Part shown: positions 33,058 through 36,644 of the stretch, one piece after another | Numbering within the stretch: position 1 is the stretch's first letter | Layout of the letters: every line of letters begins with the position of its first letter | Made by a program: the position numbers and the translations under genes | The notes under the pieces: model-generated | Databases searched by the model: none | Seen by the model: the letters and a program-made list of their open reading frames with translations, nothing else | Told to the model about the DNA's origin: nothing | Assembly (NCBI GenBank): GCA_947451935.1 | Contig: CANGBH010000020.1 | Coordinates: 1 to 37,477, forward strand | Source: Chitinophagaceae bacterium | GTDB lineage: Bacteria > Bacteroidota > Bacteroidia > Chitinophagales > Chitinophagaceae | DNA length: 37,477 bases | Direction: 5' to 3'

Positions 33058-33113
33058 TTGGGAGTTGGAGGTTAGGACTTGTATTAAACCCCAAACACCC
33101 AACCCCTAACCCA
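33058..33113. repeat. Inverted pair of degenerate heptamer arrays after pgk
   Basis: Eight consecutive 7-mers fill this stretch in one phase. TTGGGAG, TTGGAGG and TTAGGAC are followed by a turn (TTGTATT), then AAACCCC, AAACACC, CAACCCC and TAACCCA. The second half is the reverse complement type of the first (TTRGGNG against CNCCYAA), so the whole can fold back. It begins at the base after the pgk stop codon. It could act as a weak terminator. Confidence 0.75.
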
Positions 33114-33162
33114 TATTTTAAATAAATTTCTGATTTCGATGCAACCACTCGATACGAAAATC

Positions 33163-33170
33163 TATCTTTA
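33163..33170 (+). promoter_or_regulatory. Possible -7 element of lemA
   Basis: TATCTTTA resembles TAnnTTTG with A in the last place, 25 bases before the lemA ATG. There is no good -33 element. Confidence 0.3.
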
Positions 33171-33195
33171 AGCACGAACAAAAATATACAAATAC

Positions 33196-33798: not shown

Positions 33799-34263
33799 TT
33801 GAACCTATTCAATTTATTTTCAACTAAAAAGCAATCATTCTTCAGTAGAGAAGAAGAGGAACGGATGGTGGAAGCCATCCGTTCTGCTGAATTGCAGACT
33901 TCAGGAGAGATTAGACTTTTTATTGAAAGCAAATGCAGTTTCATCAATCCAGTTGATCGAGCAATTGAATTATTTCGAGAATTGAATATGCATCAAACAC
34001 AAGACAGAAATGCTGTACTGGTTTATATAGCACTTAAAGACAGGCAATTGGCTGTCTTTGGTGATGAAGGCATACACCAGAGACTTGGACAATCCTTCTG
34101 GAATCACGAAGTAGAGAAAATCATTGCTCAATTTAACCAGAATGAAATTTCGAATGGGATTTGCAATATGATCAAAGCCATAGGAACTGCCTTAACAGAA
34201 CATTTCCCCCATTCTAAAGATGATAAAAACGAGCTATCCGACGGGATTGTATTTGGAAAATGA
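33799..34263 (+). CDS. TPM domain protein (TTG start)
   Basis: A 154-residue TPM (TLP18.3/Psb32/MOLO-1) domain protein without signal peptide or transmembrane segment. SGEIRLFIESKC and DRNAVLVYIALKDRQLAVFGDEGI are typical. The N-terminus MNLFNLFSTKKQSFFSREEEERM matches the usual start of this family, but its codon is TTG, 9 bases after the lemA stop. The next in-frame ATG would cut 22 residues. Its stop overlaps the next gene (ATGA at 34260-34263). Confidence 0.85.
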   Translation: MNLFNLFSTKKQSFFSREEEERMVEAIRSAELQTSGEIRLFIESKCSFINPVDRAIELFRELNMHQTQDRNAVLVYIALKDRQLAVFGDEGIHQRLGQSFWNHEVEKIIAQFNQNEISNGICNMIKAIGTALTEHFPHSKDDKNELSDGIVFGK

Positions 34264-35030
34264 TAAAACAACTCTTACTTAGCTTATCCTTGTTTTTTGT
34301 CTGTTCAGTCCATGCGCAGATTGAAAAAGAATTGCCTGCAAAGCCCAATCCCCCAAAACTAGTTGTTGATTATACCAATACCCTAGCGCCTGATCAACAA
34401 GAATCACTTGAACGAAAACTTACAGCATACGACGATTCAACCTCTAATCAGGTAGCTGTTGTAATCATTTCAACAACTGGCGATCGAGACATTGCCGATT
34501 ATGCTGTTGCATTGGGCAGAGCATGGGGAATTGGAAACAAAGAATTTAATAATGGAATCCTACTACTAGTTGCAAAGGATGATCGTAAGATATGGATTGC
34601 CACCGGATATGGACTTGAAGGAGCATTGCCAGACATTACAGCAAAGAGCATCATTGATAATGAGATCAAACCTAATTTCAAGGAAAATGATTTTTACAGA
34701 GGATTAGATGAAGGCACCGATGCTATAATAGCTGCAACGAAAGGAGAATACAAAGCCCCAGAAAATTATTCAAATAGAAAAGGAACTTCAGGAAAAAGAC
34801 CTGGCTTATTAATCATGATTATCATGATCCTATTCTTCATTTTTGTCAATAGGCGTGGAGGCGGAGGTGGTGGAATGTACAATAGGCGTGGTCGTAGCGG
34901 ATTAGGAGCACCATTTTTCTTCCCGTTGGGCGGAGGCGGAAGCTCTGGCTTTGGAGGAAGCAGTGGCGGTGGTTTCGGCGGATTCGGTGGTGGAAGTTTC
35001 GGAGGTGGCGGAGCTGGTGGGGATTGGTAG
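34260..35030 (+). CDS. TPM domain membrane protein with Gly-rich tail
   Basis: A 256-residue exported TPM-domain protein (YgcG type). Signal peptide 1-19, TPM domain about 34-160 (VDYTNTLAPDQQ, NGILLLVAKDDRKIWIATGYGLEGALPD), one transmembrane segment about 182-197, and a Gly/Phe/Ser-rich low-complexity C-terminus from about 199 ending GGAGGDW, as usual for this family. It is translationally coupled to the previous TPM gene by ATGA. The role is unknown; relatives are linked to photosystem II repair and envelope functions. A heptamer array begins at the base after the stop. Confidence 0.9.
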   Translation: MIKQLLLSLSLFFVCSVHAQIEKELPAKPNPPKLVVDYTNTLAPDQQESLERKLTAYDDSTSNQVAVVIISTTGDRDIADYAVALGRAWGIGNKEFNNGILLLVAKDDRKIWIATGYGLEGALPDITAKSIIDNEIKPNFKENDFYRGLDEGTDAIIAATKGEYKAPENYSNRKGTSGKRPGLLIMIIMILFFIFVNRRGGGGGGMYNRRGRSGLGAPFFFPLGGGGSSGFGGSSGGGFGGFGGGSFGGGGAGGDW

Positions 35031-35072
35031 ACGCTGAACGCTTGGCGCTGGACGCTTAACGCTGGACACTCT
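35031..35072. repeat. Heptamer repeat array, left arm
   Basis: Six 7-mers in phase: ACGCTGA, ACGCTTG, GCGCTGG, ACGCTTA, ACGCTGG, ACACTCT. The array begins at the base after the TPM gene stop. Bases 35038-35063 are the inverted repeat of 35200-35225 with one mismatch in 26. Confidence 0.85.
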
Positions 35073-35151
35073 TAGTTGTACTTTTTTGCAGTTGATTATT
35101 CAGAGTATTGAATATCTATATTGAAATTTTGATTATTACTTTGGCGGTACA

Positions 35152-35242
35152 ACCCCGAACTCAGAACTTCCAACTCATCATTCATTGCGTTCAGCGTAAA
35201 GCGTTAAGCGTCCAGCGCCCAGCGTAAAGCGCTAAGCGATCT
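35152..35242. repeat. Heptamer repeat array, right arm (two heptamer types in one phase)
   Basis: Five 7-mers of one type (ACCCCGA, ACTCAGA, ACTTCCA, ACTCATC, ATTCATT) are followed without phase change by seven of another (GCGTTCA, GCGTAAA, GCGTTAA, GCGTCCA, GCGCCCA, GCGTAAA, GCGCTAA). The second type is the reverse complement of the left arm. The array runs into the stop codon of the beta-CASP gene at 35241. The 79 bases between the arms (35073-35151) show nothing else. Confidence 0.8.
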
Positions 35243-36644
35243 ACCCCAACCCCACCTCCTGATGCAATTCAGGAACCTCAACATCAGTAAACCCCTTTCT
35301 CAATAAACGTTCCTTGAAATCGGTTTGTACATTGAATTCTCCATGTACAACAAATAATTTCTTTACCAACTTAGGGTCTTGACAAGAAAGGAATTGTGAT
35401 AAATCTTCATAATCACCATGCGCACTCATGCTTCGAATGTTTCCGATTTCAGCATGAATCTCATGACTAACACCATAGATATTAACGTCCTTTCTTCCTT
35501 GTTGAAGTCTAGCTCCTAAAGAGTGTGGCTCACAATACCCCACCATCAAAATACTATTTCTTGAGTTTTCAATATTATTACTGATATGATGCTTTACTCT
35601 GCCTGCATCTGCCATACCACTAGCTGATATGATAACGCAAGGCTCATCTCTAAAATTTAGCAACTTAGATTCTTCAACAGTTTTGATATACTCTAACCCC
35701 ATAAACTTAAATGGATCTTCGTCGTTCTTTAAAATATTTTGAATGGTATTATTAAAATACTGAGGATACTTTTTTACAATTTCAGTTGCCTCAATACTTA
35801 ATGGACTATCCACAAAATAATCAAGCTCAGGCAACCTTCTCTCTAACTCCAGTTGATTTAATGCATAGAGTATCTCCTGAGTTCTCCCCACACTAAAAGC
35901 AGGTATGATTAATTTTCCTTTTCTTTTAATACAGGTACGCTCTATCCATTCCAACAGCTGATCAGGAGTTGGCACATGCAGATCATGTAATGAGTTTCCA
36001 TAAGTAGATTCAATAAGAATATAATCTGCTTGAGAAAAAGGTTCAGGTGAGCGAAGTATGACATCCCTGTAGCGGCCAATATCGCCACTGAATGTTAACT
36101 GTTCAGTTTTACCATTATGATGAATACGCAAATGAACAGCAGCACTTCCAATGATATGTCCAACATCCGTGTACATCAATTCAATCCCTTCTTCAATTTT
36201 AAACCAATTGCCATAATCCACTACATGAAATTGATCCATTGCAACTAAAGCCTCATCGCGTGTATACAATGGCTTTAAAAATGGTTGTCCTAAGGCCTTG
36301 CGTTTCTTATTGGCATACTTTATATCATCCTCTTGAATACCTGCAGAATCTTCAAGCAATACCCCTGCCAGTTCTCTAGTAGCTGGAGTAGAAAATATTT
36401 TTCCTTTAAATCCGTCTTTAACAAGTTTTGGAATTAAACCACTGTGATCGATATGGGCATGAGAAAGTATCAAGTAATCAACTTCACTTGGAGTAAATCC
36501 CCAATTTCTATTCAAAACATCCGTTTGCTGTCCCATGCCTTGAAACATACCACAATCAAGTAAAATCTTTCTATTGTTGTCTAATGTAAGGAGGTGCTTT
36601 GACCCAGTAACACACCTTGCCGCTCCATGAAATGCTATTTTCAT
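35241..36644 (-). CDS. MBL-fold beta-CASP metallo-hydrolase (RNA-processing type)
   Basis: A 467-residue metallo-beta-lactamase fold protein of the CPSF73/Ysh1-like beta-CASP group, probably an RNA nuclease. The zinc motif HAHIDH gives His62, His64, Asp66 and His67; further ligands come from DVGHIIGSAAVHL and FSGDIGR. The beta-CASP cap includes LIESTYGNSLHD, IIPAFSVGRTQEILYAL and SASGMADAGRVKHH. SAHGDYEDL is the C-terminal zinc motif. It is full length. It lies 6 bases downstream of the DUF4442 gene, so both are probably on one mRNA. The RNA substrate is unknown. Confidence 0.92.
   Translation of the reverse strand: MKIAFHGAARCVTGSKHLLTLDNNRKILLDCGMFQGMGQQTDVLNRNWGFTPSEVDYLILSHAHIDHSGLIPKLVKDGFKGKIFSTPATRELAGVLLEDSAGIQEDDIKYANKKRKALGQPFLKPLYTRDEALVAMDQFHVVDYGNWFKIEEGIELMYTDVGHIIGSAAVHLRIHHNGKTEQLTFSGDIGRYRDVILRSPEPFSQADYILIESTYGNSLHDLHVPTPDQLLEWIERTCIKRKGKLIIPAFSVGRTQEILYALNQLELERRLPELDYFVDSPLSIEATEIVKKYPQYFNNTIQNILKNDEDPFKFMGLEYIKTVEESKLLNFRDEPCVIISASGMADAGRVKHHISNNIENSRNSILMVGYCEPHSLGARLQQGRKDVNIYGVSHEIHAEIGNIRSMSAHGDYEDLSQFLSCQDPKLVKKLFVVHGEFNVQTDFKERLLRKGFTDVEVPELHQEVGLG

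Follow-up and report, generated by a model that had tools for sequence, protein, structure and literature searches.

Two inverted heptamer arrays between convergent genes

The window analyzed here, a stretch of DNA of 37,477 nucleotides, is contig C20 of the draft genome of a Chitinophagaceae bacterium (G000; 2.56 Mb, 186 contigs, 95.9% complete). With genes called as longest ORFs, a plus-strand gene for a TPM-domain protein (34260-35030; Pfam TPM_phosphatase, E 1.4e-43) and a minus-strand gene of the metallo-β-lactamase fold (35241-36644; Pfam Beta-Casp, E 6.7e-35) face each other, the product of the latter containing β-CASP, Lactamase_B and RMMBL domains. The closest named loci were found in Chitinophagaceae metagenome assemblies; the best of them has 98% identity over the β-CASP protein and the same gene coordinates as G036.

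The 210-base spacer between the two genes (35031-35240) consists of two inverted arrays of the degenerate heptamer AGCGNNN around a centre. The left arm (35031-35072) comprises six words with AGCGNNN on the minus strand; the sense strand of the TPM gene accordingly reads NNNCGCT immediately 3' of its stop codon. The centre (35070-35158) overlaps with a short run of plus-strand AACYNNN words (35151-35185: AACCCCG, AACTCAG, AACTTCC, and AACTCAT, followed by CATTCAT), which are in phase with the heptamers of the right arm. The latter (35186-35241, plus strand) begins with TGCGTTC, continues with AGCGNNN words, and extends as far as the stop of the β-CASP gene. A preliminary description of this DNA had proposed that the array is flush with both gene ends and built of six words on the left and seven in opposite orientation on the right, and our reanalysis agreed: the TPM stop codon occupies 35028-35030 and the left array starts at 35031, while the last word of the right array ends at 35241 and the β-CASP stop codon lies at 35241-35243 on the minus strand. 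Likewise, bases 35038-35063 and 35200-35225 were confirmed to be inverted copies of each other that agree at 25 of 26 positions and contain a perfect block of 20 bases (35044-35063 and 35200-35219); 136 bases lie between the two.

With up to two mismatches allowed, the pattern AGCGNNNAGCGNNNAGCG matched the window 12 times, with 11 matches located at the spacer, versus 0.54 expected and a maximum of five in 100 shuffled sequences. When arms of six and seven words were drawn at random from the same genome, at least 25 of 26 matches were obtained in 3.7% of 4000 simulations; much of the match between the arms is thus due to the words on which both draw. Folding of the RNA from 35020 to 35250 gave −86.1 kcal/mol (z −7.5). 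A second array in the window lies at pgk (33058-33115), where words such as TTGGGAG and TTGGAGG follow the pgk stop codon together with words of the AACCCC type, a related word class; the stretch 33058-33180 was 97% identical in G036.

Dispersal of the AGCGNNN family

A pattern of three consecutive AGCGNNN words matched G000 at 230 places (123 + 107), and the reversed control at none. The corresponding four-word pattern was found in 4 of 60 genomes including G000 itself, with 150 matches in G000, 100 in G036, 8 in G037, and 2 in G015; the latter two were matched through other words (AGCGAGT in G037, AGCGGGT in G015). The reversed four-word control matched in G015 (73), G037 (8), and G032 (7). 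In G015 and G032, these reversed matches were GCGANNN words. Among the first 37 genomes of the genus searched, the word type was confined to G000 and G036, and two genomes added later (G062 and G063) carry arrays at the spacer. The spacer therefore belongs, as one of many sites, to a family of degenerate heptamers that is dispersed in the genome and specific to a lineage. All genomes compared are draft assemblies, and the array sites of G000 and G036 are samples (about 100 places per genome among the matches listed, plus 32 array ends) in which longer gaps are favoured. In 293 G000 words tabulated among the matches listed, the variable positions were mostly T, C, or A, with few G.

Among the matches listed, the array-bearing gaps of G000 were convergent in 14, co-directional in 11, and divergent in three cases. 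The background, gaps of at least 20 bp in 20 stretches chosen regardless of arrays, comprised 32 convergent, 151 co-directional, and 49 divergent gaps, giving a convergent excess for G000 of 14/28 versus 32/232 (Fisher p 3e-5). The array-bearing gaps of G036 among the matches listed were seven convergent, nine co-directional, and one divergent. Family-wide, in 80 loci, the convergent excess was not significant (9/84 versus 26/460 gaps, p 0.09).

Two small contigs with paralogous genes (L180, L181) carried AGCG arrays in every convergent gap, with GGTGCGAAGCACC palindromes between the words. By eye, GTTGGGG was observed just 5' of the stop codon in several gene ends that abut arrays (L178 4450-4590; window 35241-35260). 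It is similar to the reverse complement of AAC words, and may possibly have served as a microhomology seed. A Y1 (IS200/RAYT-like) protein of about 140-155 amino acids was encoded by a single-copy gene in the same neighbourhood, which we take to be that of aroB, in 7/7 genomes (L288 1435-1857, L286, L287, and L289-L292).

Polarity at gene edges

Of 38 stop codons with an AGCG array no more than 30 nt away, 33 had CGCT on the sense strand (p 4e-6, among the matches listed), and arrays near start codons had no polarity bias (4 versus 4, among the matches listed). All 13 pairs of adjacent arrays on opposite strands that were less than 200 bp apart had the order CGCT-loop-AGCG, and the reverse order was not found among the matches listed. 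This polarity was not limited to one word: in arrays identified de novo in unrelated stretches, 18 of 19 inverted pairs had the higher purine content in the 5' arm, and only the AGCG site of G036 deviated. The sense strand of arrays beside stop codons was purine-rich in 40 cases and pyrimidine-rich in 12, and beside start codons these numbers were 4 and 15; this tally leaves out five loci of already sampled genomes and does not count 36 arrays far from an edge, nine intragenic arrays, and 12 neutral ones. The purine-rich strand thus runs outward from the gene edge on both sides of a gap.

As a consequence of this edge polarity, arrays of the same word at both edges of a gap face each other. 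The large inverted repeat between convergent genes that was emphasized in the preliminary description is indeed present; its design, however, is not special to such genes, as inverted pairs were also found in ++, --, and -+ gaps and the polarity at the edges suffices to explain it. The idea that the two arms co-evolve word for word was abandoned. It fits the window site and its counterpart in G036, where five consecutive words are identical, but not the set of 13 pairs (p 0.19 with swapped arms); the word-shuffle comparison of the same 13 pairs gave p 0.015.

In G017, the inverted heptamer pairs (L205, L206, L207, L209) were built of three word classes, AAAAGAG, AATAGGC, and AAGGCAC. Several of the loops in this genome contained AACAGCC and/or GGCTGTT, which jointly form a terminator-like hairpin.

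Dominance of period 7

In a scan of 80 Chitinophagaceae loci (902 kb) for tandem periods of 4 to 21, period 7 was represented by 44 arrays and no other period by more than five, whereas the shuffled control gave none. At a second setting, 35 intergenic and two intragenic arrays of period 7 were obtained from these loci, versus eight intergenic arrays of period 8 and 0 to 2 arrays for periods 5, 6, 9, 10, 11, and 13. Samples of 400 kb gave 25 arrays of period 7 versus seven of period 8 in G017, six versus one in G000, and five versus two in G008. The exception was G015 (149 kb), with period 8 ahead (11 versus six). Slippage alone gives no reason for a unit length of 7.

Word turnover at the orthologous spacer

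For analysis of the orthologous spacer, 41 genomes of the genus were searched. The TPM protein was found in 36, loci were obtained for 30, and a convergent β-CASP gene was present in 23; the other seven were dropped. In all eight spacers of at least 50 bp, an array of period 7 or 14 was detected (p7 ≤ 0.001 each), and these eight arrays fall into five word classes. The lengths of these spacers were 302 bp (G062), 244 bp (G036), 210 bp (G000), 190 bp (G008), 139 bp (G063), 105 bp (G017), 83 bp (G025), and 67 bp (G028). Among the 11 spacers of 20-49 bp, arrays were found in G060 and G024 (p < 0.001) and in G022 (p 0.049). No array was detected in eight spacers of 32-46 bp and four of 0-7 bp; the array is therefore dispensable for the TPM and β-CASP genes.

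AGCGNNN words occupied the spacer in G000, G036, G062, and G063. The words of the other genomes, assigned by eye, were AAAAGWG in G017, TTTTTAG-like in G028, ATCTCTC/AACTCTC-like in G008, and GTTRACW-like in G025, G060, G024, and G022. In a tree of the β-CASP protein, the four AGCG genomes formed one clade (support 100/99) that splits into G000 with G036 (92/87) and G062 with G063 (98/91); nearest outside this clade were G028, G010, which has no array, and G017. Spacer lengths of the four species (210, 302, 244, and 139) differed by a multiple of 7 in one of six comparisons, and their centres differ too. The finding of five word classes at one orthologous spacer supports the proposal of the preliminary description that a general mechanism rather than one repeat family is at work: the same design recurs with different words, it is present in 8/8 spacers of at least 50 bp, and period 7 leads by 44 to ≤5 arrays.

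Shared register and replacement of single arms

The AAC words at 35151-35178 are in phase with the right AGCG arm. The same applied to 18 of 24 comparisons of AAC[CT] words with adjacent AGCG arrays in G000 and to 27 of 35 in G036, as against one in seven expected by chance; copies within one site are non-independent in these counts. The spacer had been described as a second heptamer system beside that of pgk. This is only partly right: the pgk-like AAC class is joined to the array in one shared register and hence does not represent a separate system. Higher-order tandem repeats in which AAC words are in phase with AGCG words were observed at L192 (4370-4540), L186 (4890-5060), and L170 (2300-2450), with a unit of 56 bases (eight words) in L192 and L186.

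At another gap, flanked by genes that we take to be valS and mtaB, G000 and G063 have a left array of the AGCG class in common, and the right array is of a different heptamer class in each (assigned by eye). Arms are therefore replaced one by one. In both genomes, the two arms of this gap belong to different word classes and are not mirror images of each other, as judged by eye.

A conserved centre in two orientations

The centre (35070-35158) was present in a single copy in each of G000, G036, and G062, always at the TPM/β-CASP site. It lies on the strand of the TPM gene in G000 and on that of the β-CASP gene in the other two. Both orientations thus exist between species only, and the flip is most simply placed on the G000 branch, because G036 and G062 lie on two sides of the tree. 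No flip besides this one was found; the orthologous pair C25/G036-C12 had the same orientation. Weak matches to the centre in G060 (twice), G027, and G034 were dismissed as chance since they fell within ordinary ORFs or next to them, where no arrays are present.

Identity of the centre to that of G000 was 88% in G036 (85 nt) and 92% in G062 (72 nt), i.e., a divergence of 12% and 8%, as measured with BLAST-trimmed ends. Four-fold degenerate sites of the two flanking genes diverged by 26-36% (G036) and 25-43% (G062). Such a low divergence would be expected under purifying selection on the centre, as judged from two comparisons of 72-85 bases.

G063 has another sequence in place of the centre, a loop of 42 bases with 97.6% identity to a loop on contig C56 of G000. 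A 61-base arm-loop-arm query gave three matches in G000, all on C56, three in G063, and none in the other 39 genomes; the matches of G063 were located at the TPM site, at the orthologue of a C56 site, and at one place elsewhere. A misbinned contig C56 was rejected as the source of the shared loop, with clade-typical identities of 93% to G062 and 88% to G063. A loop common to C115 and C120 was not counted as movement because, by translations compared by eye, the genes that it adjoins are paralogous.

Weighing of alternative explanations

The fold at the spacer brings to mind a selected bidirectional terminator or 3'-end stabilizer, in which an RNA hairpin of the inverted arms would end or protect both convergent transcripts. 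The z value of −7.5 for 35020-35250, the arrays 0-30 nt after stop codons, the convergent excess of G000 among the matches listed (14/28 versus 32/232, p 3e-5), and strong loop hairpins at L206, L207b, L035b, L250, and L058 (z −4.6 to −9.4) would all fit with such a role. However, a pattern scan of 34900-35400 on either strand for a G+C-rich stem with short loop and T-run retrieved no terminator-like site, the array is absent from the eight spacers of 32-46 bp and the four of 0-7 bp, the two valS/mtaB arms differ in word class in both G000 and G063 and show no mirror symmetry (by eye), and the family-wide convergent excess is weak (9/84 versus 26/460, p 0.09). A selected terminator of this type is unlikely. 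The narrower idea that the centre itself is an intrinsic terminator was rejected, with the scan at the site empty and most of 29 folded loops lacking a strong hairpin; in other pairs, strong loop hairpins were found at the five loci above and at C120a. No Rfam family matched up to an E value of 1 in 34000-36600.

The flipped centre between sister genomes, its conservation, and the inverted arms (25/26) are also what a phase-variable inverton would present, with a recombinase acting on the arms to flip the centre and switch expression of a neighbour. The consensus for sigma-70 promoters does not cover those of Bacteroidota; a scan with it turned up nothing promoter-like between 34900 and 35400. 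The convergent layout of the two neighbours leaves no start codon near the site, only a single flip was observed among three genomes, and none of the seven annotated proteins beside the site is a recombinase, which makes this reading improbable. Similarly little credit can be given to a hairpin of the REPIN/BIME or MITE type mobilized by a transposase such as the single Y1 (IS200/RAYT-like) protein; we regard it as improbable, too. The 61-base module common to different sites of G000 and G063 and the one Y1_Tnp gene per genome (7/7 tested) are in favour of it, but no AGCG or period-7 array was detected around the Y1 gene in seven loci of 1.9-3.3 kb each, and the Y1 proteins of G000 and G036 are near-identical and that of G017 is similar to them, despite the very different words of G017. 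Moreover, arm length and word order vary, centres differ between most sites, and no Rfam match was obtained. Movement of a REPIN by the Y1 protein was consequently discarded, the surroundings of its gene being without arrays.

Proposed explanation and significance

The explanation that we favour, and consider probable, is that of a dispersed, lineage-specific set of heptamer arrays, part of the intergenic heptamer class widespread in prokaryotes, with edge polarity and turnover at the DNA level, with fold-back arms that would enable flipping and a constrained centre that would be functional at this site. It draws on features observed in the compared sequences, namely dispersal, polarity, word turnover, register sharing, the flipped centre, module sharing, and low centre divergence. 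Arrays occupy the edges of intergenic gaps with a polarity fixed by the adjacent ORF, and the same word class at both edges yields a long inverted repeat. We infer replication slippage and template switching as the processes by which arrays may grow, shrink, and exchange in units of 7, and by which words and whole arm-loop-arm modules may be copied between loci, one word class being replaced by another. Inverted arms could fold back as a hairpin or cruciform, which would let the intervening stretch flip; such a flip has occurred at the TPM/β-CASP spacer.

According to this explanation, the centre of roughly 85 nt would be the constrained part and most likely the functional part of the site, and the arms would be fast-changing repeat DNA with a possible use as a stem; any role in RNA is putative. 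As a guess, the centre would most plausibly act as an orientation-independent 3'-end signal common to both genes. A more far-reaching view has the arrays as the recombination arms of self-rearranging intergenic modules, the constrained core of which would flip or be swapped via these inverted arms; the word would be rewritten per lineage, period 7, edge polarity, and core positions would persist, and the copying machinery would set the number 7. We consider this view rather unlikely.

Heptamer arrays are reported to be the commonest intergenic tandem repeat of prokaryotes, with no hint at what they do (PMC6344855). With one gene boundary at which at least five heptamer words, the same polarity, and a flipping core occur, the heptamer question becomes a comparative and experimental one. 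This genus allows asking what preserves the unit of 7 and the polarity as words turn over.

Comparison with known repeat systems

REP, BIME, and REPIN elements with RAYT transposases are dispersed intergenic inverted pairs that can fold, and the RAYT gene is flanked by such repeats. The arrays studied here are similar in being dispersed, foldable inverted pairs in genomes with a single Y1 protein; they differ in that the arms are tandem heptamers of changing word and that no array lies beside the Y1 gene. Intergenic heptamer tandem repeats of prokaryotes were reportedly described by Mrazek et al. in 2007. In the SPADE survey, as far as covered by the sections consulted, intergenic heptamers are the commonest tandem repeat in prokaryotes, and their unexplained cause is discussed with the idea of a polymerase footprint (PMC6344855). 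The likeness to these arrays lies in the dominance of period 7 (44 versus ≤5) and in the intergenic position (35 versus two in genes). The same sections of the survey deal with the tandem period and contain no mention of inverted geometry, polarity, or turnover (PMC6344855).

TAACTGA repeats form intergenic heptamer arrays, also in Bacteroidetes, that are mixed with other heptamers, and indels in 7-nt steps were observed between two Cyanothece strains (MacGregor 2015, PMC4679880; parts consulted). They differ from the arrays described here in having one fixed word that, in the main genome of that study, is mostly located just 5' of start codons, with related heptamers rarely repeated there (PMC4679880). 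Hairpin-associated small inversions of chloroplast genomes share with the TPM/β-CASP spacer an inverted-repeat stem and a loop flipped between related genomes (PMC5492656). Their stems measure 8-18 bp and their loops 2-31 bp, compared with about 26 bp and 136 bases at the spacer, and the sections consulted do not describe these stems as heptamer arrays (PMC5492656).

Close parallels were found with the GGGANTN heptamers of Xanthomonas and Nostoc, which are degenerate with some fixed positions and mostly intergenic (Rehm et al. 2015, PMC4692102; parts consulted). They form close inverted pairs (70 and 75 cases), and their arrays adjoin an ORF that lies 5' on the repeat strand, whichever way this ORF is read, and are located on the coding strand within 50 bp of stop codons (PMC4692102). 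AGCG arrays are alike in both respects, edge-set polarity and inverted pairs. In contrast to the G-rich GGGANTN words, which can form G-quadruplexes (PMC4692102), AGCGNNN words cannot, because they have no runs of three G. GGGANTN repeats are fewer between divergent ORFs and prefer aligned ones (PMC4692102), whereas in G000 convergent gaps are enriched among the matches listed. The sections consulted mention no centre flip, word turnover at orthologous sites, or register sharing for GGGANTN repeats (PMC4692102); centre flip and register sharing were also not found in those parts of the literature covered by our search. What the present site adds to these systems is a further word type, the turnover of words at one orthologous boundary, two word classes in one register, a centre that is both flipped and conserved, and a loop module that occupies different sites in sister genomes.
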